Positions 2,626 to 55,614 of a DNA stretch of 64,000 bases are shown here, piece by piece (positions within the stretch are counted from its first letter, which is position 1; each line of letters begins with the position of its first letter). The stretch spans positions 1,667,275-1,731,274 of the forward strand of contig NC_049993.1 in NCBI RefSeq assembly GCF_000003815.2, given 5' to 3'. A program made the position numbers and the translations under genes. The notes under the pieces were generated by a model, which did no database searches, had not been told where the DNA came from, and was given only the letters and a program-made list of their open reading frames with translations. The DNA comes from Branchiostoma floridae (Eukaryota > Chordata > Leptocardii > Amphioxiformes > Branchiostomatidae).

Positions 2626-2739
2626 ATGAATGAATGAATTCCAAATATAATTTTTGTTGTTTTGTACAGTACAATCTACAGAACACGAAGCCACCAAACG
2701 TGTCATTTCAACTGTAACTCTTAAAGCAAGGAAAGTATT

Positions 2740-3545
2740 TTGGGTGAAAAAAACATAAATCTCTAAGAAAATATCTCTAGGTAATAGGACTTCAGTTCTT
2801 AAAGTAAGAAATATTCATGGTGTAAGAATATCAATCATGGAAATAATAAAATATTTGAACTGTGCTCTCGATGTAAGAAAAACAATGGTGTGGGAACGTC
2901 AATGATAAAGTAAGAAATCATTTCTAGGCAATAAGATTTTTACTTTTGAGGTGAGTAGTCTTTGTGTAAGAATATTAATCTTACAAGTAAGAAAATATTT
3001 CTAGGCATTGTTAGGAAAAATATTCTTCGCATAAGAATATCAATCTTAGACGTAAGAAAATATTTCTAGGGATTAAGAATTTTTGCCCTTGATGTAAGAA
3101 AAGTGTAAGAATATTAATCTTAAGGTAAGAAAATATTTCTAGGCAATAAGATTTTTATTCTTGAGGTGAAAAAAAGTATTCTTGTGCAAGAACGTCAATC
3201 TTAAAAGGAACAAAACATTTCTAGACAGTAAGAATTTTTGCTCTGGATGTAAGAAAAGTATTCTTGGTGTAAGAATACTAATCTTAGAAGTAAGAAAGAG
3301 TTCCTTGGCAATACAGCAATTTTCTCTTGAAGTAAAATTATTTATGGTGTAAGAACATCTAATCTCTTAGAACTAAGAAAATACTTCTAGGCAATACGAT
3401 TTTTACTCTTTAGGTGAGAAACGTTTTCTTAGTGTAAGAAAAGTCAATCATAGAAGTAAGAAAACGTTTCTAGACAATAGCAATTTTCTCTTGAAGTAAG
3501 AAAATAGTTCATGGTGTAAGAACATCTTAAAATTTTCTGTGAGGA
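2740..3545 (+). repeat. degenerate ~80-bp tandem repeat, direct orientation
   Basis: A recurring unit carries TTTCTAGGCAATAAG, a TTTTGCTCTTGATGTAAG phase, and TATTCTTGGTGTAAGAAT. Successive TTCTAGG/TTCTAGA marks near 2921, 3000, 3063, 3137, 3219, 3301, 3386 and 3469 give a spacing of about 63-85 bp. Copies are heavily diverged. No coding potential. Confidence 0.75.
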
Positions 3546-3587
3546 AGCAAAACAAGATAAACAAGAAAAGGCATTTTTGGCAGTGCA

Positions 3588-3715
3588 ATAGAAAGTACAT
3601 ATTCACTAATTACATAGTCTTCACTTATTTCCGGATGTCAGAGGATTGTGATCACTCCAATTGCCGTTGGAAATAGAACTGGGGTGGAAGGGTTATGCAG
3701 TTCACTACCAAAATT
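3588..3715 (+). repeat. dispersed block, copy 2 (first half)
   Basis: Repeats the first half of the block at 2440-2625, including CTTATTTCCGGATGTCAGAG and GGATTGTGATCACT, then breaks off at a TATGCAGTT segment shared with copy 1. Confidence 0.6.
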
Positions 3716-3839
3716 TTTTTCTTGTTTATTTTGTTTTCCTTCACTGAAAATTTATATTCCAGGACGAAAGTTAATCTGTCCCAAGAATTTTTTAAAAACG
3801 TGCTTGTCCATGGAGCAAGCTAATTTTTGCTTTAATTTT

Positions 3840-4165
3840 TTAGAAATTTTTGAGATTAATATTCGTACACCAAGAATACTTTTCTTACATCAAGAGCAAA
3901 AATTCTTGTACTTCTTAAGAGTTATAAAAAAGCAAGCAATTTTATATTTTTTTCTTGCATCATAAGGAAAAATAAGAAGATTTTGCTTAAAGTTCTAGAA
4001 AATTCTTAGGTGTGAAAATCTTTCAGAAAAATTTTCTTCACCAAAGAAGAGTAAGAAAATTGTTCTTCGCATGAGAATTAAGATTTTTACTGCAGTTTGT
4101 TTTGCTTGAATCTAATTCTACATTTTCTTCTTGCAAGAATATTTTCTTCATATAAGATTTGTCCA
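3840..4165 (-). repeat. same ~80-bp repeat, inverted block
   Basis: Reverse-complement copies of the unit at 2740-3545: ACCAAGAATACTTTTCTTAC followed by ATCAAGAGCAAAAATTCTTG. The inverted block separates two direct blocks, so part of the array could fold back on itself. Confidence 0.65.
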
Positions 4166-4185
4166 TGGGGTAAGCAAAACAAGCA

Positions 4186-4276
4186 TCTTTGGCAGTGTTG
4201 AAATTGATATCTGGAAGCATTGCCAAGTCAGATGACATTTTATATACCGCATATAGAATAGAGAGGCCAAGAAAAG
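4186..4276 (+). repeat. dispersed block, copy 3 (second half)
   Basis: Matches the distal half of copy 1: GGCAGTGTTGAAATTGATAT, then GCATTGCCAAG and ATATAGAATAGAGAGGCCAA. Confidence 0.55.
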
Positions 4277-4830
4277 AAGAAAAAATATCCTTGGTGTAAG
4301 AATATCAATATTTCTAGACATTATTACCTATGCTCTTGATGTAAGAAAATTATACTTGGTGCAAGCACGTCAATCTTAAAAATATTTCTAGACAGAATGC
4401 TTGCTCTTGGTGTAAGAAAAGTATTTTTGTTGTAAAATATTAATCTTATGTAAGACTTTCTTGGCAATAAAACAATTTTCACTTGAAGTAAGAAAATCAT
4501 TCTTGGTGTAAGAGCATCAATATCGTAGAAATAATAACACATTTCTATGTATTATAATAACATTTATACTTTTGACGCGAGAAAAGTATTCTTGGTGTTA
4601 CGATGTCAATCTTAGAAGTAAGAGAATTTTTTTCGAGACAATAGGAATTTCTATGTGGAAGAAAAACAAGAAAAGTCATTTTTGGTATATAGAGGTAAGA
4701 AAACATTTTTAGGCAATATGAATTTTCACTCTTGAAGTAAGAAAAGTATTGTTGATGTAAGTACATAAATATTTGAGGTCAAAAAACATTTTAGGCAGTA
4801 AGAATGTTGGAGTGAGAAAAGATTCCTCAC
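4277..4830 (+). repeat. degenerate ~80-bp tandem repeat, second direct block
   Basis: Resumes the unit of 2740-3545 in direct orientation, with TCTTGATGTAAGAAAA, CTTGGTGTAAGA and TTTCTAGACA marks. It is more decayed than the first block. Confidence 0.65.
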
Positions 4831-9469: not shown

Positions 9470-10898
9470 CCTGCCTACCTGCCTAAGTGCCTAGGCCAGT
9501 GACTGGCCCCTTGCTCCCTCCGTGATATTTCTCCAGACTGCACGATTCGCCGCACTTCTCTCCGCCAACTTAATACTTTGTCCGATGTCCTTTTCTATCT
9601 GGTCTCTCCATCGTTTCGGGGGTCTGCCCCGTGGCCTGGGCTTTTGGAAATCTTGATAGTATGCTTTGTGGACAAGTGTGTGTGGAGGTCTTCTCACAAC
9701 GTGACCAAACCACCTTAGTCTTCTGAGTCTGATGGAATCGATAATGGTGTTTTCTATACCCAGTCTCGCTCTTATTTCCACATTCGGAATTCGGTGGCGA
9801 AGTGAAACACTGAGGGTCGCCCGTAGGCATCTCATCTCGAAAGCCAACAGGAGAGACTCATCAGACTTTTTTAGAGTCCAAGTTTCACATGCATAAGTGG
9901 CAATTGGTAGTATGAGTGCTCGGAAGAGACGCATTTTAAGACATCTACTGAAACTTTTGCAGTTCCATACTGTTTTTCTTAGCCTACCAAATGCGGATGC
10001 GGCCAGAGAGATCCTTCTCTTTATATCATTTGTGGTGCCAGGTACAACACTTCCTAGGAAAACAAACTCAGGGACTTTTTCAACATTTTTACCCTCTATG
10101 AAGATGTTTTCTTGTTCTATACTAGAGATGACTTAACATTTTGCAGCATTCACTTTCAGGCCCCATTTCTTGCATGCTACTTCGAGCTCTTTTGTCGAGA
10201 GCTGAAGTTTACTGAATATGGCTGCTATAAGTGTGGTGTCATCTGCATACCTTTCCTCTGTGGATAAGTTATCATGGAGTTGAAAAGTTATGTCAAGACT
10301 TTTCAGCTCATCCATAACAAACTCCAGGAATATGTTGAACAGGACTGGGGACATGAGGCAACCCTGTCTGACTCCTACACCGACTTGGAACCAGTTTGTG
10401 ATCTGTCTATTGATTGTTATTGCACATTGAGTGTTTCTGTACAGTTCTTCAATAATATTTACAATTTTTGCCTCTACCCCAATCGCTCTCATCATTTTCC
10501 ATAGAGCTTTCCTCCATACTGTATCAAAGGCGGCCTTAAAGTCAATAAGATGGAAGTGAAGATTAACCTTTCTTTCCTTTAATAGCTTTCTCCAGGATTT
10601 GTCTTACAACAAATATGGCACCAACTGTGCCTCTACCACTTCTGAAACCAAACTGGGATTCCTTGAAGTGAGCTTCTGTTTTTTCCTTCATTCTGTCAAG
10701 AAGTATCCTAGAGAAAACCTTACCCGGAATTGACAAAAGTGAGATGGCCCTGTAATTCGCAGGGTCCATCTTACTTCCCTTCTTATGCACGGGTATGACC
10801 AGCATTTTAGACCATTCTTTTGGTGGAATTTCCTCATTCCAGACTTTGTGAAGATAAGGTATAACATGTCAAGCATAGCTTCTCCCCCACTCGCTAGA
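9470..10898 (-). mobile_element. 5'-truncated non-LTR retrotransposon (RTE-like) in locus A
   Basis: Minus-strand reverse transcriptase is split over frames: ANYRAISLLSIPGKVFSRIL and QFGFRSGRGT (10563-10805), GVRQGCLMSPVLFNIF and ERYADDTTLI (10133-10495), and a C-terminal domain with LRWFGHVVRRPP (9491-9934). A 10-bp target duplication ACGGTGATGT flanks it (9460-9469 and 10899-10908). Paralogs B-D are uninterrupted here. Stops and shifts between the frames show it is dead. The C-terminal style suggests an RTE-like clade; the clade call is tentative. Confidence 0.88.
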
Positions 10899-13941: not shown

Positions 13942-14337
13942 GTAAGAAATTGAAGCTTATCAAGCTAAGCTAGACTTCAATACTCAGTACTTTTTTTTAG
14001 TAGATCGCATATTAAAATGAAGTCTGTTTATGAGCTGATGATAGCTGTGGGGAGGGGACTGGCATCCAAATACGGAACAACAGATCACGCAGTTTTGATT
14101 TTCGTGTTAATCTCAGTTTATGTAACGCCACCCATGTTGGTTTATGTTGTATTTAGTTAGAATAACACCCCTATGTTATTGTTTGTTCGGTCCTATAGTT
14201 AGTCGATCCGACCACCGACTCCTACTCTATCGCCATGTTGGAATAAAGGTCCTCGATATAGTTGCATCGTGTGCCCAAGAGTCATTCCCTTATAGCGATC
14301 CTTGTCCATACTGGCGTAACCTTTTTCTGAGAATAAC

Positions 14338-15065
14338 GCAAAACTACCGAGGTCACGGGTAAATTTCTCATCACTCGGTATCCAGTGATGAAGTCGCGTC
14401 GTCACTGGCTTACCAGTGGGGAATATCTATCGTCACTAGTTTTCCAGTGATGAGGAAACTTCAGCTGGTAAACCAGTGACGAAAATATTCAGTTTACTGA
14501 AGAAAAAGGAATCATCGTTTCAGTTGAGGGTATTTCAAAGTTAGCACTGAAAGTTATACTAACGTCGCCTCTGCAAGTCCTCACACTCCCGGACCGTAAA
14601 TCTAACAGTAACACGGCTATGGCGACATGTGAATTAGGGTACTGTTTTTGTTGCACATCAAACTCAGCACTGGAACGTTCTAGTGCTATTAGAACATGGT
14701 CACTGGAAGCCCAGTGCCGAAATAATTTCATCACTCGGTGTCCAGTGCCGAACAGTCACCCATCACTGGAAAACCCAGTGAGGAACCGGTGACCGCGATG
14801 GTTCCACACCCGGTGTCCAGTGACAAATGACGTTCATCACTGGGCCCCGAGTGAAGAGCGGAGTTCATCACTGGAAACAGAGTGACGAGTCAAGGTTCAT
14901 CACTGGAATTCCAGTGCCGAGGGAGCTTCATCACTGGAACAAAGCAATTAATCACTGGGAAACCACGAGCTTTCTTCGTCACTGGGCGTACAGTGATGAC
15001 GCCATTTTGAATATATTTTCGTCACTGGAAGCCCAGTGAGGAACCCGTGACCCGCGTAGGCTTGC
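14338..15065. mobile_element. palindrome-array TIR element, 9-bp TSD, in intron 1 of ZNF B
   Basis: The ends are GCAAAACTACCGAGGTCACG and the complement of CCCGCGTAGGCTTGC. The flanking 9-bp duplication GAGAATAAC is perfect (14329-14337, 15066-15074). The matching site at locus D is empty, reading CTGAGAATAACTTCCTC. The interior is a series of short palindromes of the form TCATCACTGG...CCAGTGATGA. No coding region. TIR plus 9-bp TSD resembles Mutator-like (MULE) non-autonomous elements; the superfamily is inferred. Confidence 0.85.
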
Positions 15066-15323
15066 GAGAATAACTTCCTCATTTTCGGATTTAAGATTTA
15101 TACTGTTAGATCAGTACTATTCCAGAGTTGATTTTGTTAACATACTATCATATCAGTCATTACATTTCGATAAAATCAATTAAGGCACATGTTATATACA
15201 ATCTGAACTTTTTAAACGATGTTCAGCATTGTCCATTCCGACGAGATGTTTGACTTTTAGTTTAGTTCTTTGAGACAAATATGCATTTCTTATCGCGTAT
15301 TTATATCTATGTGTTCCTCCAGC

Positions 15324-18907: not shown

Positions 18908-18925
18908 GTAGGGGATAAACGCAGT

Positions 18926-20130
18926 GCAAGTCTACGAAAACCTCGCCTTCCGCACTGGTGTTCCAGTGCTGATTCAATTGCCTGAACGGCCTCAGCACTG
19001 GTTTTCCTGAAATTATTTCAGCACTCGTTTTCCAGTGCTGATCGGCCTTGTTCGAGTACTGAAACTCCCTCAGCACTGGTTTTACAGTGCTGAATTCGTT
19101 TTCCAGTGCTGAACTTCTGTCAGCACTCGTTTTCCAGTGCTGAAATGCCGCCAGCACTCGGTTACCAGTGCTGAAATCCGGGGATATCGGGGCCGGCCAG
19201 GTCAAATGTCATTCAGCACTGGGTAACCAGTGCTGAAACTGCCGTCCGCACTGGAACCGAGTGCTGATATACAAAAACCTCGCCTTCCGCACTGGATTTA
19301 CCAGTGCTCGTGAAATCTTCAGCACTGGAAAACCAGTGCTGACGTCTTTTAAGGACTGGAACGATGTGCGAACCAGTGCTGACGTCCTTCCAGCACTGGC
19401 ATCTCCCAGTGCTGAGAGGGGTACAAGACGTAAATTCGAAGGAAAAATAAGTTATTTCGTGCAAAGAAAATTGTAGTTGTGCTATCCATTCTTTATGTAA
19501 TTGAATATATGTATACTGTATAAGGGATATATATCATTTATAAAATGAATGAATGAATGAAGACCTTTATTGCACTTTTTTTTATAAAGTGCTGATAGCG
19601 GTACTAGTAAAAGGACGCAAATTTGATTAAAGTTACTTCGTGCAAAGAAAACTTCGTGTAAAGTTGTGTATTTTATTCGTTGTACATGTGTAACTGAAAA
19701 GTAGATATATGTATATGTGTAGGAGGTGTTTAAGGGATAGCTATCATTATAACAATAAGCAACTTTTCAGTATAATCCAGCAATGTCTTAAGTTTTAGTA
19801 GTAGAGCAAAGGACGTATCGTAATTCCGAATTACTGTATACTTAGTATCTCGGAGTCTCCCGATCTCTCAGCACTCGGTTTCCAGTGCTGAATGTTCTTC
19901 ACTGCACTAGGTTTCCAGTGCTGAATGTTCGTCAGCACTGGAAATCCAGTGCTGAATGTTCGTCAGCACTCGGTTTCCAGTGCTGAAGCCGGCGTTTCGA
20001 GTGCTGAGGGCGCGTCAGCACTGGTTTTCCAGTGCTGACGAACATTCAGCACTGGAAATCCAGTGCTGACGCCATCTTCAGCACTGGGTCCCAGTGCTGA
20101 GAAAGGAGGGCGAGGTTTTCGTAGTTTTGC
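18926..20130. mobile_element. palindrome-array TIR element, 9-bp TSD, in intron 1 of ZNF C
   Basis: 1205 bp. The left end is GCAAGTCTACGAAAACCTCG; the right end is the complement of GCAAAACTACGAAAACCTCG. It has a perfect 9-bp duplication AAACGCAGT (18917-18925, 20131-20139). The interior holds two arrays (about 18955-19420 and 19860-20100) of units like TCAGCACTGG...CCAGTGCTGA, around an AT-rich centre that includes GAATGAATGAATGAAGACC, perhaps a LINE tail. A DR1-like AGGTCAAATGTCA lies at 19199-19211. No transposase. Same family as 14338-15065 and 49163-50727. Confidence 0.88.
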
Positions 20131-20534
20131 AAACGCAGTTGCTTACGCAGATTTGAAAGAAATATGTGGTAGTTTTGGTTTGCCAATTTCTAGGACGTAA
20201 ATGTGAGGAGGGTGGGGGGAGGGGGGTGTTGTGGGTAACCACTGCAATTATGTTCCATACTCACTCCATGCAATCTTTTATGTAACGTTCCGAATGGTAG
20301 ATTTTCATTTAGTTGTACAACGTAACATTATGATCAGATCACACTCAGTAATACAACGATTATAACCATAAGTGTTAAATTTGGGAATCATGAACACTGA
20401 TGGCGAATTCCAACATGGGAATAGAAGTTTTCTGCATTCATTTACATTCTGTAATAGATTTAGTCTAATAGAGGTTTTCCCGTTGTGCATGTGCATCCTA
20501 ATGTATGCTTACGTTTATGGACATGTCTTTCAGC

Positions 20535-22797: not shown

Positions 22798-23471
22798 GTG
22801 GGATTCTAAACCTCATCATGCTAAACAAGACTTCAAGAATCGACTTAAAATTCAGATTTTTCGTAAATAGATCGCTTATTAATAAATGAAGTCTGTTTGT
22901 GGGTGTTGATCGATGTGGGGAGGGGGGCATCCAAACGAAACAGAATTCGCAGTTTTGTTCCTCGCGTAAAGCTTGTTTCACCTTTTAGGTTACTTAGTAT
23001 TGAATTAGGCAGAGACCTCGATGCTAATAAACAATCTAGTTCTGTGTAGGATAAGTACTGTGTAAATGTACGCTGTGCTCAATTTCGAATCTATTAGTGG
23101 AAGAAGAGGTCGTATTACACCATATTCAATATTCATGTTGGGATATACTAAGTTACATAGACTGGAGGGGTACTAACAGCTGTCATACTCTTGTAACATT
23201 TCACTTCATGTAAACCTTCTCTGAGAATAACTTCCTCATTTGCAGACGTATTTTTGCTGTTAGATGAGTACTATTCCAGGTTGATATACTGTTCACATAC
23301 CATCAGATTTCTTCTTCTTCAATTGAGGTCATATGGTTTAACTGGTGGATTTGAACGCTAACATTTTAGCAGAAGAATTTCCATTCCGCCAAGGTGTTCA
23401 GCTTTAGTTCTCTGAGAAAAATGTACATTTCATAAAAACTCGCTTTTCTTATATCAATGTTGTCCTTCAGC

Positions 23472-25296: not shown

Positions 25297-25410
25297 AGTG
25301 CACTGAGTTTGTCAATAGCATGGCTATTGGCACACTGAGTGTGCTAATAGCCTGTTTAGGCTATTGACACAGTGAGTGTGTCAATAGCCTGTTTAGGCTA
25401 TTGACACACT
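25297..25410. repeat. array of hairpin units (GGCTATTGACACA)
   Basis: Alternating GTGTCAATAGCC and GGCTATTGACAC units separated by TGTTTA or AGTGAGTG, each pair self-complementary. The same units form the ends of the element at 54495-55537. This may be a solo end or an internal fragment of that family. It follows 25 bp after the stop of gene D, so it would lie in its 3' UTR. Confidence 0.7.
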
Positions 25411-32279: not shown

Positions 32280-32407
32280 AATGGGTAACGAGGTAAACAA
32301 AATGACCTTTAACCCTCAGATTGTTCACCTTTCATCCCTTGGAGATTCAGACAAAGGCTTGCAGGATTGGAAGATTGCGAGGAGGTGAAAATCAAAACTG
32401 GAAGCAG
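32280..32407 (+). promoter_or_regulatory. non-coding exon 1 module of ZNF F
   Basis: ATGGGTAACGAGG, TGACCTTTAACCC (32303-32315), TTCACCTTTCATCCCTTGG, and donor GAAGCAG|GTAAGAACG after 32407. The G-rich motif ATGTGGGGAGGGGGG is at 32529-32547. Predicted first intron 32408-35997, the longest of the array because of nested insertions. Confidence 0.62.
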
Positions 32408-32567
32408 GTAAGAACGCGTAATTTACAAGAAATAACGCTCTTATCATGAAGCAGAGATTGCATAGGTCATTTTATGGTGTATGGGCCGCATCAGGATAAT
32501 ATGTGTCACTTTTCTTGGTTACGAAATAGATGTGGGGAGGGGGGCCAAGTCACACGCCAAGTATAGG

Positions 32568-32973: not shown

Positions 32974-34108
32974 AAACCATCAGTCCTGGAATGCCACTGT
33001 CAGTGGCTGGGCAGGCACTGACAGAGGCATTTCAGACACAAATCAGCAGAAGACCTCCACTGACAGGCCTGCAATACGTCTGGCAAGTACAAATCGGGCT
33101 CTGCACAGATCTGGGACTGTCTTGACAGGCCTGAAAGAGCTCTGAACTGATTAGGACTGTCTTGACAGGCCTGAAAATACGACTGTCGATGATAGTCCCA
33201 CCACTGTCAGCCATGGCCAATCACAGTCTTGGATTAATTAGGCATCTAGCGAATCAGATATCAGCTCCTTAATTGCTTGCAGGGCAGGAAATTTTGAATT
33301 TTACAGTTAGGTTTTTGAGGAAATTAAGAGAATGGACAGCAGGGATATTTACACTGTATCCAGGCCTCCATCTCCCAGACTTTGCAGGTTGGAAAGGAGA
33401 TTAATTGACATAACTATTGTTTGGAAGTACTGTGGATGTGGGGGAAAGTGTACATCATGTTTCTGAGGTAAGATATTTAGTGACAAACGGCCACATTTTG
33501 AATTTTGACAATTGTTGGGAGGGGGGCATGGCAGACTGTGCTATAGACTGGGTGTACAGTCAGTTGTTGTCTTGTTCTTTAAGAGACTTGTTTGGTTGTG
33601 GTTTCAGAAATTCAGATTATATAAGCATTTTAAAATTGTCAAATCAATGACAGAGGAGGTATTGACGATGCCCCATTCTTGTCTATAATGTTTCTGCTTC
33701 TGTTACTTTTTGAAGCATTTTGCAGTTGCATAAATTTCTGTACTCTATGTAGATAGAGCCTAGTTAGCCAAAATCTTTCTATTGTTCAGTTTTTGTATAA
33801 TTTTTACCTCCAAAATCTAGTACATGAGCAGAAGTGTTTTGTTATGTAAGAGCATATCTACGACTGTCAGCCTCTGGGAATCCACGACTGTCAGTCATGA
33901 TTCAACGACTGTTTTACGACTGTCCTACGACTGTCAGCCACTGGGAATCTATGACTGTCAGTCATGATTTAACGACTGTTTCTACGACTGAAAATTTGCA
34001 TATTTTGTGAATAATTAAAGGCTGATACAGTCACTGACAGCCCCTGATCAGAGGCAAAACAGTGCTGTCTGACAGTCACTGACGGTGCCAATCCAGGACT
34101 GATAGTTT
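32974..34108. mobile_element. palindrome-array TIR element (GACTGTCAG type) in intron 1 of F
   Basis: Termini AAACCATCAGTCCTGGAATG and the complement AAACTATCAGTCCTGGATTG form imperfect inverted repeats of about 30 bp. Both ends of the interior are filled with repeats around CGACTGTCAG / CTGACAGTC, with CACTGACAG and GACAGGCCTG variants. No transposase. A target duplication is not clear (TATTCAGTA vs TATTTAGGC at best). It has the same architecture as the CACTGG elements but a different motif. Confidence 0.7.
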
Positions 34109-38640: not shown

Positions 38641-38928
38641 ATAGATATTGATGATTTTGTTAACGTACGGAAATAACGGAAGCCAGGGAAACAGGAATGT
38701 AGTTTTTATTACTGATAGCTAACGAATTTTCGTTTTTTTTTAATGCTAGACATAGACATAGATAAAATTGGCTATATGGAGCTCAGTTAAGTTAACTTAA
38801 TATATATCTAAGTCATTAAAGTACAGGTTACATGATATTATCATATAGCCAGGCGCCGCGGACCAATCGGAAGGCCCCGTTCCACGTTGGTCATGACGCC
38901 GTAATACTTAGATTCCCGCAAGCCCGGC

Positions 38929-39063
38929 GTGTATCGCCCTTCTGATTGGTCAGAATGAATCGACACCGGCACCGGTGTCGATTTGCATCGACATCGCCAC
39001 CAGTGTTGATGCAAATCGACACCGGTGTCGATTCATTCTAACCAATCAGAAGGAGCGATACAC
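38929..39063. repeat. 135-bp foldback element
   Basis: Almost fully self-complementary: GTGTATCGCCCTTCTGATTG at one end and CAATCAGAAGGAGCGATACA at the other. It has an internal palindromic ACACCGGTGT core repeated in each arm. Probably a MITE. Confidence 0.75.
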
Positions 39064-49094: not shown

Positions 49095-49162
49095 GTAAGA
49101 ACGCGTAATTTACAAAAAATAACGCTCTTATCGTGAAGCAAAGACTGTATAGGTCATTTTTG

Positions 49163-50727
49163 CAAAACTACGAAAGCTTCACCCTCCTTTTTCAGCACTG
49201 GAAACCAGTGCTGAAGATGGCTTCAGCACTGGAAACCGAGTGCTGAATGTTCGTCAGCACTGGAAAACCAGTGCTGACGCGCTCTCAGCACTGGAGACGC
49301 CGGCTTCAGCACTGGAAACCGAGTGCTGAATGTTCGTCAGCACTGGAAACCGAGTGCTGACGCTCTCAGCACTGGAAACGCCGGCTTCAGCACTTCAATG
49401 CGTTTATATTGAGTGGGTCAGTTTACCTGACACCATTAGTATTCACCAGAATCGACATGGCTACTGCGATATCTATCACAAATTGACACAATAAATTTGT
49501 TTGCAATCCCGTTTTAATGATATCCATTCCTTATACATTTCAATTATACAAAACAACACAAATTCAGGCTTTTTTTGCATCTGTATCTATCTTACGTTAT
49601 ATCAAAACCGCCGTTCGGCGTAACACACCAGCTAAAACTGCATAAACTTGAAAAATCATCTTCGTTGCTGTGGAGACCACCAACCACTTCCTGTACCACT
49701 GCCCTCGCTATGAAAAGGAAAGACAACACATGCTGCTAGAATTCGAAGTGGAGAATATATATGAGACATACAACACAGCAGAGGACAGCAGAGACACGGA
49801 CATCACTACGCTTGCTGGAATGAGAGAAGACCGTTCAGAAGGAATCAACAAACAGATGTACATGGCCTTCTCCCAGTACATTGAGAGTACACACCGTTTC
49901 GACATGCTCTCCTAGAAACTCCTCCAGCAACTCTCAAGCACAAGGAACCAAGAGTTAAATACCAAGAGAGACTATTGACTCAAATGCAAGCCATGTGTTA
50001 CTCAGCACCAAGAGGCCACGTCTAGCGAAATAATAGACGTTAAACGAGGACAACAACAACAACAATTAGTACCGTATATAGTACCGCTTTCAGTACTTTG
50101 TATCTATACTCTATACATACACCAAGTTACACATTAAATTGAATAGCACAACCAAAAGTTTAACTTTATATTTAATCAGTATACGTCAAGTACCGCTCTC
50201 AGCACTAGGACACTCCAGTGCTCGAAAGACTTCGGCACTGGTTTGAAGAACGTTCCAGTGCTGAAAAGACGTCAGCACTCGTTTTCCTGTGCTGAAGATT
50301 TCTCAGCACTGGTGTTCCAGTGCTGAAGTGCCCCTGAGCACTGGAAAATCGAGTGCGGAAGGCGAAGCTTTTGTATATCAGCACTCGGTCCCAGTGCTGA
50401 CGGCGGTTTCAGCACTGGGTAACCAGTGCTGAGTGACCTTTGACCTGACCCGTCGCCGCCAGGGCCGCGAGTTCAGCACTGGAGCCGAGTGCTGACGAAC
50501 ATTCAGCACTGGAAAACGTCTTTTCAACACTGGAAAACGAGTGCTGACGTCTTTTCAGCTCTGGAAAACGAGTGCTGAGGGAGCTTCAGCACTGGAGAAA
50601 GGCCGATCAGCACTGGAAAACGAGTGCTGAACATTCTTCAGCACTGGGCGCCGAGTGCTGAGGCCGATTCGACCATTGTTTTCAGCACTCGGTTCCAGTG
50701 CGGAAGGTGAAGCTTTCGTAGACTTGC
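49163..50727. mobile_element. palindrome-array TIR element, 9-bp TSD, in intron 1 of ZNF H
   Basis: 1565 bp. Ends GCAAAACTACGAAAGCTTCA and the complement GCAAGTCTACGAAAGCTTCA. Perfect 9-bp duplication GTCATTTTT (49154-49162, 50728-50736). The paralogous introns of F and I show the uninterrupted site. Arrays at about 49192-49395 and 50190-50700 contain CAGCACTGG...CCAGTGCTG palindromes. TGACCTTTGACCT lies at 50434-50446. The centre carries a captured LINE relic. Same family as 18926-20130. Confidence 0.88.
49660..50062 (+). pseudogene. LINE C-terminal relic nested in the palindrome-array element
   Basis: Reads VETTNHFLYHCPRYEKERQH, the usual C-terminal H-x-L-x-x-C-P-x-Y motif after a non-LTR RT, open to 49915. 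A ~130-bp 3' region ends in (CAA)n at about 50049-50062. Confidence 0.7.
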
Positions 50728-51187
50728 GTCATTTTTATGGTGTATGGGCCGCATTAAGATAATATGTGTCACTTTTCGAGGTTACGAAATAGATGTGGGG
50801 AGGGGGGCGAAGTCACACGCCAAGTCCTACGATACAAAAGATAGGGCAGTTCAACTATAGTAAGTTAGCACCATATTATTATAAATGTAACAAAACGGCA
50901 ATCGAAACAATGTAAGGGGAAACGAATATTCAGGTGATACAAGGAGTGTGAGGACAAGGTTTGTGGAATTCAGGAATGGACTCAATGCAAAATCTGAAGG
51001 AAAAGTTTTAAAGAGGGAGGGGGCGGTAAGGGACGTCTGGGCAGATTTTAATATTAAGATGGAAATTAAGTTTTGCATTAGACAGTTGTTTGATGAAATG
51101 TTCAGTAATGGAGATAAAGATTTAACAGAAAAAGTTCGGCTTATTTGTCAATTTCATCCATTTAAATTTGTGTCCAATAGGTTGGCC

Positions 51188-53961: not shown

Positions 53962-54494
53962 GTAAGAACGTGTAATTTACAAAAAAAGAAATCTTATAAT
54001 GAACCATTATATTACGAATGTATACGGCATTTCTGTGTGATATATGGGCCGCATTAGTACGATATGCCGGTATTTTAGGTTACGAAATATATGTGGGAGG
54101 GGGGCGAAATCACACACCAGGTCCTTCGAGACAAAACAAAGGGCAGTTCTACTTAAGTAGGTTAGCACCATCGTTTAATATAACAAAAAGAATCGAAGGG
54201 GAAGGGGAACGAATATTCAGGTGATACACGTGAGTACGTAGCCTGATTTAAATCACGCTTCATATGTCCGTCCTACATTGCGGGGTGAGGAGTCTACAAG
54301 CTCCGGATAGCGGAGTTTGCGTTACACAGACTAGTGAGGACGAGGTTTGTGGAATTCAGGAATGAACTCATGGCAAAGTTGTAAAGGGGTGGGGGCTGTA
54401 GGAATAACTGGGCAGATTTTAATGTTAGGATGGAAATTGAGTTTTGCATTTGACAGTTGTTTGATGAAATGTTCACTGCTTGATTTTAAGATTT

Positions 54495-55537
54495 GAGCGA
54501 GGCTATTGACACACCCAGTGTGTCATTAGCCTAAACAGGCTATTACCACACTCAGTGTGTCGATAGCCTAAACAGGCTATTGGCACACTCAGTGCGAACT
54601 TTTTCACGCGTTTACGGTAAAGTCCGCAAGTAGCCAGTCACAAGTATGCAAATGAGCTAACAATATGTAGTGCCGTGCAAACACTGCATGTGATCATGTT
54701 GGCTCGATTTTGGAACACGTTTTCAGCTGTGTTTACCGACGAATTCCTGCCGTTTGGGAGAATTTGCGGCTTCAAAACTTATATCACATGTAAAGCGAAG
54801 TTATAGTTGTTGTTTTACTTCCATCATTTTTAATGTGAAAGAACTTTGTAGCGTCATAGCGAGATCGACCGATATGTTTATATATTATACGAGTACCGCG
54901 TAACCGCTAGGCTGTTTGGATGACATAGCGGTGGGGAAATCCGGTTAGAAAAAATATGGTTAGAAAAACCCACAAGTGATTATTTCAAGGGTCCCTGGTC
55001 CAGTTTAGAAAAAAAAAAATAAGTGTACAAAATAAGAACGTAGCGGGTGGATTCTGCCGATCTGCGGCTGAAAAAAAAAAAAAGGACCTAAACATGCACT
55101 CTTGAAAATGCAGATCAAAAAGATTCAAAGGTGGGTTTTGCTGGTTCTGGTCGCAAGACGAAAATATTCTTATATCAAATGGATTTTTTTAAAAGGTAAA
55201 AGGACAATTGAAAAAAAAATTCCAGCTCGGACTCGAGTCGGAACTGGCAACAAAGGTTCGTAGGTCAACGCTCTCCCCACTACGCTACGGCCAACATAGA
55301 CGATAACAGTCGGCATTTACAGGTATTCAAATGTAGGGCATAACATGAATACGTCTGTTCATTCGAAGATTCAAAGATTCCAATGTCTAATCCCTCGAAC
55401 AATGTCTAATCAACTGTTGCTTGTGTAAAATAATGTTGGGAAAGTCATGTTACAAGTTCTGATTGGCTGGTTGGCATCTCGGTGGGTCAATAGCCTGTTT
55501 GGCTATGAGCACACTCAGTGTGTCAATAGCCATAGTG
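54495..55537. mobile_element. hAT-like TIR element in intron 1 of I
   Basis: Ends carry GGCTATTGACACAC...AGTGTGTC in inverted orientation, followed by internal AATAGCC TAAACAGGCTATT hairpins. TTAAGATTT flanks both sides (54486-54494, 55538-55546). F and H show the uninterrupted site (AAGATTTAACA). An 8-9-bp TSD suggests hAT or a related superfamily. The interior (1043 bp) is non-coding, with a tRNA-like segment at 55222-55295. Confidence 0.75.
55222..55295 (-). repeat. tRNA-like segment inside the 54495 element
   Basis: The minus strand reads GGCCGTAGCGTAGTGGGGAG with A box TAGCGTAGTGG and a B-box-like GACTCGAGTCC. Too degenerate for a tRNA gene; probably a SINE head. Confidence 0.5.
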
Positions 55538-55614
55538 TTAAGATTTAACAGAAAACGTTAAGCTTATTTGTCATACTTATCCCCCGTTCAAATTTGTGTC
55601 CATTAGGTTTAGGC

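Follow-up and report, generated by a model that had tools for sequence, protein, structure and literature searches.

Elements A, B and C, three insertions in the window (the whole stretch of 64,000 nucleotides that was analysed), belong to a real, genome-wide, non-coding mobile family, with ends and a body of rows of short palindromes. A and C are members of one family in opposite orientations, and B is a diverged relative with weak palindromes. They are probably non-autonomous foldback-type Mutator elements in which the palindromes act as multiple transposase sites, a reading that is held with fair confidence. A second family with palindrome arrays (family D) has long relatives with a MULE-type domain, which suggests how elements of this kind may move.

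Elements A, B and C in the window

The earlier note on this DNA placed the three insertions between perfect 9-bp duplications, and these are exact at all three copies (GAGAATAAC, AAACGCAGT and GTCATTTTT; Table 1); its coordinates stand for A and B, and the start of C is corrected from 49163 to 49162. The motif GCAARNCTACG, given there as common to the termini, is exact at five of the six ends and has one mismatch at the left terminus of B. The outer 11 bases tell the two ends of each element apart: positions 5-6 are GT in one end type and AA in the other, and for each type A and C are identical; the two terminus types of B stand in the order found in C. Bases 12-22 show no differences between the two ends within A and within C, three differences between A and C at either end, and seven to nine in comparison with B, and the X subfamily (see below) has the same within-element pattern as A and C. 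Because these bases are shared within an element and differ between elements, the two ends evolve together in each element type. The first array of A, like that of C, includes an internal copy of a terminus-like motif that resembles the X terminus (TATACAAAA...). No further A/B/C copy was found in the window by BLAST (E 1e-3).

Table 1. Coordinates of the palindrome-array elements and associated features in the window.
Feature	Position	Strand	Description
Element A	18926..20130	+	1,205 bp; terminus 1, left palindrome array (~18947-19417), internal domain (~19418-19865), right array (~19866-20102), terminus 2
Target duplication of A	18917..18925 (left), 20131..20139 (right)		9 bp, AAACGCAGT
Element B	14338..15065	-	728 bp; degenerate TC(A/G)TCACTGG palindromes
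Target duplication of B	14329..14337 (left), 15066..15074 (right)		9 bp, GAGAATAAC
Paralogous empty site of B	23182..23309	+	identical across TCTGAGAATAACTTCCTCATTT
Element C	49162..50727	-	1,566 bp; arrays ~49190-49394 and ~50197-50706
Target duplication of C	49153..49161 (left), 50728..50736 (right)		9 bp, GTCATTTTT
Paralogous empty site of C	32384..32562	+	one target copy, 1-bp gap
Probable nested fragment in C	49652..50070	+	sequence by eye; ends in (ACA)n-like tail
Element D	54495..55537	+	1,043 bp; complete; 31-bp palindromes GGCTATTGACACACTNAGTGTGTCAATAGCC, ~37-bp spacing at ends
Target duplication of D	54486-54494, 55538-55546		TTAAGATTT
Paralogous empty site of D, in C locus	51115..51123	+	TAAAGATTT
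D terminal array fragment	25306..25410	-	

Empty sites were sought by joining the flanks of each element and aligning them. For B and C the flanks recur elsewhere in the window as paralogues because zinc-finger gene units have been duplicated; both elements have an empty site, three further and more diverged ones match C near 27.5, 43.2 and 54.0 kb, and none was found for A in three places tried. The empty sites show that B and C are insertions and not satellite blocks. A, B and C have the terminal inverted repeats and fixed-length target duplications of class II TIR elements, and the paralogous sites of B and C supply the empty target. Within A, positions 19538-19590 hold a small probable (TTCA)n-type retroelement tail between TTATAAA direct repeats.

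The architecture is foldback-like, running from a terminus through a palindrome array, an internal domain and a second array to the other terminus, and long inverted termini made of internal repeats flank the middle domain; the arms are both direct and inverted repeats because the unit itself is palindromic. In A, B and C the TIRs are about 26 bp and the units about 24 bp long, in steps of about 31 bp, with centre spacings of 31-32.5 bp in 20 of 38 neighbouring pairs less than 200 bp apart. Helical phasing of the palindrome centres was considered and rejected, the p value of 0.029 being too weak and selected (12 hand-chosen spacings) and the whole-set value being dominated by the 31-bp class.

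Perfect palindromes with 8-bp arms start at 47 positions in A (39 per kb) and 46 in C (29 per kb), with several starts possible per long palindrome, versus 1.27 per kb in the remaining window; the mean in 30 dinucleotide shuffles each was 0.17 for A and 0.3 for C, and the largest values were 1 and 3. B has only two such starts, versus a shuffle maximum of three, and 12 looser CACT..AGTG units, just one of which has TCAT in both arms. The "dozens" of ~24-bp palindromes attributed by the earlier note to the bodies are present in A plus C but not in B, which is too decayed to strengthen the argument. The sequence CAGCACTGG occurs 48 times in the window, versus 0.32 expected, and 46 of these occurrences are inside A, B and C. 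A stricter, non-overlapping scan found 14 palindromes in A, B and C together (3.5 kb) and 21 in the remaining 60.5 kb, versus 5, 1 and 6 when the whole window was shuffled three times, so the remaining window is somewhat palindrome-rich too.

All three elements are located 164-372 bp upstream of zinc-finger frames (15261, 20502 and 50891), a zone that covers 5.6% of the window (nine frames, called by Pfam for three and by eye for the others; threshold set after seeing the data, for three window copies only). Adjoining the zinc-finger genes, positions 10133-10603 of the minus strand contain an RVT_1 frame, a probable non-LTR retroelement.

Genome-wide copies and coding content

The genome-wide search for termini and palindromes that the earlier note had proposed was made over 513,431,437 bases in 431 contigs. 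The palindrome TCAGCACTGGN4CCAGTGCTGA, with up to two mismatches, occurs at 2,380 places, versus two for the reversed-pattern control, and the first terminus, with up to three mismatches, at 82 places (33 of them exact A-type; control 0). The second terminus pattern occurs at 126 places (control 0), and 24 of the 100 matches listed are cross-matches to the first terminus. With one of the other 76 listed second ends at up to 20 kb, 52 of the 82 first ends form pairs; seven of the paired copies are shorter than 700 bp, 42 are 700-1,700 bp and three are longer, with a median of 1,235 bp. Copies are present on every contig from C1 to C19. Viral contigs contain neither the strict palindrome nor the terminus, and matches to a looser palindrome pattern in two viral and eight prokaryote contigs were taken as chance.

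Two outcomes named by the earlier note as counting against a transposon, copies without TIR and TSD boundaries and a plain satellite, find little in the genome to sustain them. Both ends are present in 15 of 20 further A-type copies sampled, with exact 9-bp TSDs in 11 (none longer), one mismatch in two and no duplication in two (L063 and L067); the second end is missing in the other five, two of which have runs of N at the far end. Among 14 loci on contig C1, both ends are present in six, with exact 9-bp duplications in L019, L021, L027 and L028, a shared AACAAATTAT displaced by four bases in L018 and no duplication in L026, and no matching end pair was found in the remaining eight within the stretch examined. 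The TSD is 9 bp in each exact case from A, B, C and X. Long tandem arrays lacking element boundaries, as in a satellite, do not describe a family in which most first ends are paired at a short median length and B and C have empty sites.

The copies fall into subfamilies A, C and X, with pairwise identities within a subfamily of 0.89-0.99, or 0.74-0.99 by multiple alignment; C is 94% identical to L018 and, in part, 98% identical to L022. For subfamily X, whose termini read GCAA(GT/AT)ATACAAAAGTAACGG, 93 first ends were found when up to two mismatches were allowed (control 0). At C16:8224754-8226574 (L077), an A-type and a C-type first end have opposite orientations and are separated by 1.7 kb; since the A-type copy is complete (1,510 bp) and has a TSD of its own, the C-type end is not part of it.

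The absence of coding capacity noticed earlier holds: Pfam has no match to the longest frame of C or to the three longest in A, and the frames of B are at most 106 aa long. By eye, the C frame (49652-49912) resembles part of a non-LTR retroelement, and the stretch around it in Table 1 is tentatively assigned, from its sequence, as a probable nested 5'-truncated non-LTR retroelement fragment. An autonomous copy, which the earlier note suggested might be sought, did not appear: no transposase was found in the two longest of the three paired copies above 1.7 kb (11.8, 4.2 and 1.9 kb). The 4,241-bp copy L078 (TSD CCAAAAATC) holds a 600-aa frame that is RT-like (domain by eye) and is therefore taken as a nested retroelement, and the 11.8-kb copy L079/L080, with 9-bp duplication TATTCTCTC, has no frame above 133 aa. 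Many copies with common ends and no transposase coding make the family non-autonomous and MITE-like.

MULE-domain matches above the Pfam cut-off number 27 in this genome, and such matches are present in 3 of 14 control genomes. The nearest listed A- or C-type end is about 19 kb from any of the 27 (100 of the 126 second-terminus places covered), and the nearest listed X end is 31 kb away (first ends only). Stretches reaching at most about 1.5 kb to either side of the 27 MULE loci contain no A- or D-type array, and isolated palindromes of other kinds are present at 12 of these loci. A 2019 survey, in the available part of its text, gives limited evidence of MULEs in chordates and leaves MULEs unconfirmed in Branchiostoma floridae (PMC6446971). 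The 27 matches reopen the question of lancelet MULEs, and some of them may be host genes of the ZSWIM kind.

Family D and the proposed Mutator assignment

A tandem-repeat scan found a 37-bp repeat at 54.5 and 25.3 kb of the window, the unit of which is a 31-bp palindrome. At 54.5 kb it belongs to D; the fragment at 25.3 kb, with its inner flank, is 92% identical over 174 columns to end a of a long D on contig C2. Allowing up to three mismatches, the D palindrome is found at 390 genomic places (control 0); one D terminus has 177 (control 1), and a second complete copy, of 996 bp with TSD ATAGTATTT, is on contig C2. Compared by eye, D and A/B/C have no common sequence except the short core CACT..AGTG.

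One end of the long D on contig C2 begins at 20558208, and a MULE domain is 2.1 kb inside this palindromic end, in a frame that is open for 1,384 aa; the 761 aa examined against Pfam match ZSWIM1-3 RNaseH-like (4.6e-36, 124 bits) better than MULE (1.1e-20, 74 bits). On contig C13, a MULE match of equal score is found at an equal distance from a D end. The two loci are 99.85% identical over 675 bp that start within one base of the terminus, 99.24% identical at the MULE locus, and unrelated outside. The opposite D end on contig C2 is 17.2 kb away, and its terminal 100 bp are 95% identical to the D of the window; on contig C13 the far end was not found in the stretch examined, which contains a gap. 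No single locus combines both ends of a long D with one TSD: the 9 bases outside the two ends on contig C2 differ (ATCTTTTTT versus TTATATAAT), and those outside the C13 end are TTATATAAT. This apparent exchange of 9-bp flanks (L081, L083 and L086; C2:20558208-20575364, C13:5003373) suggests a real 9-bp duplication with flanks exchanged between the C2 and C13 copies by recombination or misassembly.

MULE matches L031 (contig C3) and L037 (contig C2), with D ends 5.3 and 8.5 kb away, were dropped from association with D: the end near L037 belongs to the complete 996-bp copy, and those near L031 have coordinates 1.2 kb from each other. This leaves L029 and L030 as the D-associated loci. What these two loci present looks like a MULE-type domain inside an apparent mobile unit bounded by palindromic arrays. 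ZSWIM proteins are encoded by host genes and are related to MULE transposases. The frame of the long D could be a captured host gene of this type, which is conceivable because it matches ZSWIM1-3 better than MULE.

The 9-bp TSDs of A/B/C/X and of D fit the Mutator/MULE range (8-11 bp, mostly 9), as the earlier note had reasoned for A, B and C; a 9-bp TSD alone is no proof of Mutator, and the fit is consistent but indirect. The Mutator membership inferred for A/B/C draws on the tie between D, as a second palindrome-array family, and a MULE-type domain. A rather unlikely alternative is that these are cut-and-paste transposons, as described, with a non-MULE transposase that leaves 9-bp duplications and a resemblance to D that arose by convergence. 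Such a mover would accord with the absence of a MULE match near any listed A, C or X end, with A/C/X termini (GCAANN..) that have no evident sequence in common with D termini, and with the occurrence of foldback structure in different superfamilies, as presented in the available parts of two accounts (PMC4079207, PMC3169594), but it has to contend with a TSD of 9 bp in each exact case and with the fact that the only palindrome-array family found with a transposase-like frame has a MULE-type domain.

Movement by a Mutator transposase is the preferred reading. A 9-bp staggered cut at insertion is recorded by the duplications themselves, and A/B/C would most likely be moved in trans by a MULE transposase. 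The palindromes would most likely be multiple dimeric binding sites for this enzyme, read together with the terminus, and the DNA-binding domain of the cognate transposase would bind the TCAGCACTGG palindromes (putative sites). Selection among source copies may keep the arms, as loops, spacers and internal domain drift. Units are gained and lost in the arrays, and hairpin loops become inverted in place; this is the pattern observed, and its mechanism is putative.

Arm conservation, alternative roles and known systems

When A is aligned with the reverse complement of C, the arms are 95% identical and the loops, spacers and internal domain 75-76%; defining the arm and spacer classes on C instead gives nearly equal identities. 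In gap-poor blocks of this alignment, 200 of 208 arm sites and 216 of 272 other sites are identical. Uniform divergence without indels, simulated for 180 pairs, never gave an arm identity above 0.838, versus 0.95 observed. Among 14 A-type copies, with decayed units scored as spacer, changes from the majority amount to 58 of 3490 in the arms (1.7%), 10 of 686 in the termini/TIR (1.5%), 85 of 1748 in the loops and 211 of 3894 in the spacers (both about 5%), and 849 of 6662 in the internal domain, the last probably inflated by poor alignment. The arms therefore vary about as little as the termini; if units are exchanged inside an array, the contrast between arms and spacers can come out too large.

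Many spacers and loops are specific to their unit and can be aligned between subfamilies. In 4 of 14 homologous palindromes of A and C, the loops fit better when inverted, a number reached in 1 of 2,000 simulations of point mutation at 25%. The clearest case is the A unit at 19211, whose loop GGGTAACC exactly inverts GGTTACCC; the GGTTACCC form is present in 9 of the 13 A-type copies that have this unit, A being among the other four. L019 and L027 differ by another exact inversion (GGATTTCC/GGAAATCC). Processing of hairpins or cruciforms would be expected to invert a loop between its palindrome arms. Pairs of non-homologous loops also often fit better inverted (69, versus 97 direct and 16 ties), so the weaker inversion cases may be due to replacement of units.

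Comparably unlikely to a non-MULE mover is an origin of the palindromes with no role in transposition, as a minisatellite expanded within the element, the conservation of the arms being homogenisation of units. Tandem units of 31 and 83 bp, gains and losses of units between copies, the window array at 2.7-4.7 kb with many short palindromes, and the satellite in the inverted termini of Tribolium Rehavkus-1_TC (PMC10218199, from the part of that account available) all suit this origin. Homogenisation should spread spacers and loops too, however, yet many of these remain unit-specific and the arms are fixed; moreover the arms vary as little as the TIRs, and the design recurs in an unrelated family.

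Still less probable, to the point of being doubtful, is a main role in which the palindromes form hairpins, in RNA or DNA, or are bound by host factors, such as repressing zinc-finger proteins, and do not serve as transposase sites. Folding is very strong (z -15.9 for the A right arm and -13.2 for B), and three of three window copies lie in the 5.6% zone, defined post hoc, upstream of zinc-finger frames, but changes in the arms of the copies compared are mostly one-sided, with few compensatory, as for a fixed site and not for pairing, and Rfam gave no family at gathering score in the whole window. A plain satellite or an assembly artefact, to which repeat-rich sequence and assembly gaps in some copies might point, has a negligible probability and is refuted by the empty sites, by TSDs that are exact although the insertion sites are unrelated, by the constancy of the termini and by the spread of copies over contigs C1 to C19.

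Multiple transposase sites in Mutator elements, the preferred reading, can be extended to a joint proposal that is tentative and, in its entirety, less likely than not: that a MULE lineage has ends made of phased palindromes, each a dimeric site, with recognition of the array instead of a single TIR, that at least two sequence-unrelated families (A/B/C/X and D) are built alike, and that extrusion of hairpins inverts the loops. If true, a chordate would harbour a group of MULEs with an end-recognition system of its own, although MULEs were thought scarce in chordates.

Repeat arrays at transposon ends are known, and their purpose is mostly untested in general. The published descriptions, as far as available, already include foldback MULEs whose short subterminal repeats form arrays (Muta1, Tm1 and, by inference, Tetris); the present families are set apart from these by a repeat unit that is itself a palindrome. 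The view of the earlier note that such a body is unusual and maybe undescribed may stand for the palindromic unit and not for the foldback MULE with subterminal repeats. Among the matches listed in open-licence literature on foldback, palindrome, MITE, MuDR and MULE elements of amphioxus there are no such elements; those listed for CAGCACTGG and CCAGTGCTG include no related transposon work by title, and those listed for palindrome arrays in transposons include no such element by title.

Muta1 of Aedes aegypti is an active MULE, classed as foldback, with 8-9-bp TSDs and subterminal repeats; the present families resemble it and related MULEs of that species in TSDs of this length, in a short terminal motif followed by short subterminal repeats that are arrayed at small intervals, and in a foldback-like form with many non-autonomous derivatives of varied interiors (PMC5225508, available part). 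Muta1 has 12-bp tandem units, nine per TIR, and only its 10-bp terminal motif is called an imperfect palindrome in that part of the account (PMC5225508), unlike the 24-bp palindromic unit here (31-bp in D) in steps of 31 or 37 bp. The Tm1 Mutator/Foldback elements of root-knot nematodes, as far as their description is available, are similar in TSDs of mostly 9 bp, composite TIRs, variable numbers of internal repeats, asymmetric terminal motifs at the two ends and MITE-like members; one Tm1 class has a Phantom-like MULE transposase. The Tm1 elements differ in units of 13-15-bp tandem repeats, with no palindromic unit reported there (PMC3169594).

Tetris of Drosophila virilis, in the text available, is likewise a non-autonomous foldback element with internal tandem repeats and 8-10-bp TSDs, and it too was placed in Mutator on the size of its TSDs, with no transposase to go by; unlike the present families, it has a longer unit (TIR-220), no mention of a palindrome in its main text, and feeds satellite arrays (PMC4079207). 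Galileo of Drosophila has long, internally repetitive TIRs, like the elements here, and its subterminal repeats were shown to be extra transposase-binding sites, but it belongs to the P superfamily, has a THAP binding domain and is described with no mention of a palindrome in the main text, as available (PMC3688188). Mcmar of Meloidogyne chitwoodi, mentioned in the available part of the Tm1 account (PMC3169594), differs in being a Tc1/mariner element. Rehavkus has a 9-bp TSD and a minisatellite beside or within inverted termini, as is the case here, and differs in being listed from arthropods and annelids; its transposase has a PHD finger, and no palindromic unit is noted in the available parts of the sources (PMC6446971, PMC10218199).

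With a palindromic unit, arms as invariant as the termini, and two unrelated families, one of which adjoins a MULE-type domain, a role of subterminal arrays as multiple transposase sites becomes directly testable.

Around seven other palindrome clusters of the window (3, 25, 26, 33, 34, 39 and 54 kb), a search for TIRs and TSDs gave nothing convincing; this search is insensitive, because D (54 kb) was recovered only through its empty site. Positions 2700-4700 form an AT-rich array in which each ~83-bp unit has several short palindromes of the CTTRGNNGTAAG type; no convincing TIR or TSD goes with it. Positions 38915-39060 are a nested foldback, in which a long inverted repeat surrounds short palindromes (ATCGACACCGG...CCGGTGTCGAT). 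Positions 32990-34100 contain clustered inverted repeats of the CTGTCAGTG type and a 67-bp tandem repeat, and are possibly another degenerate palindrome-array element.
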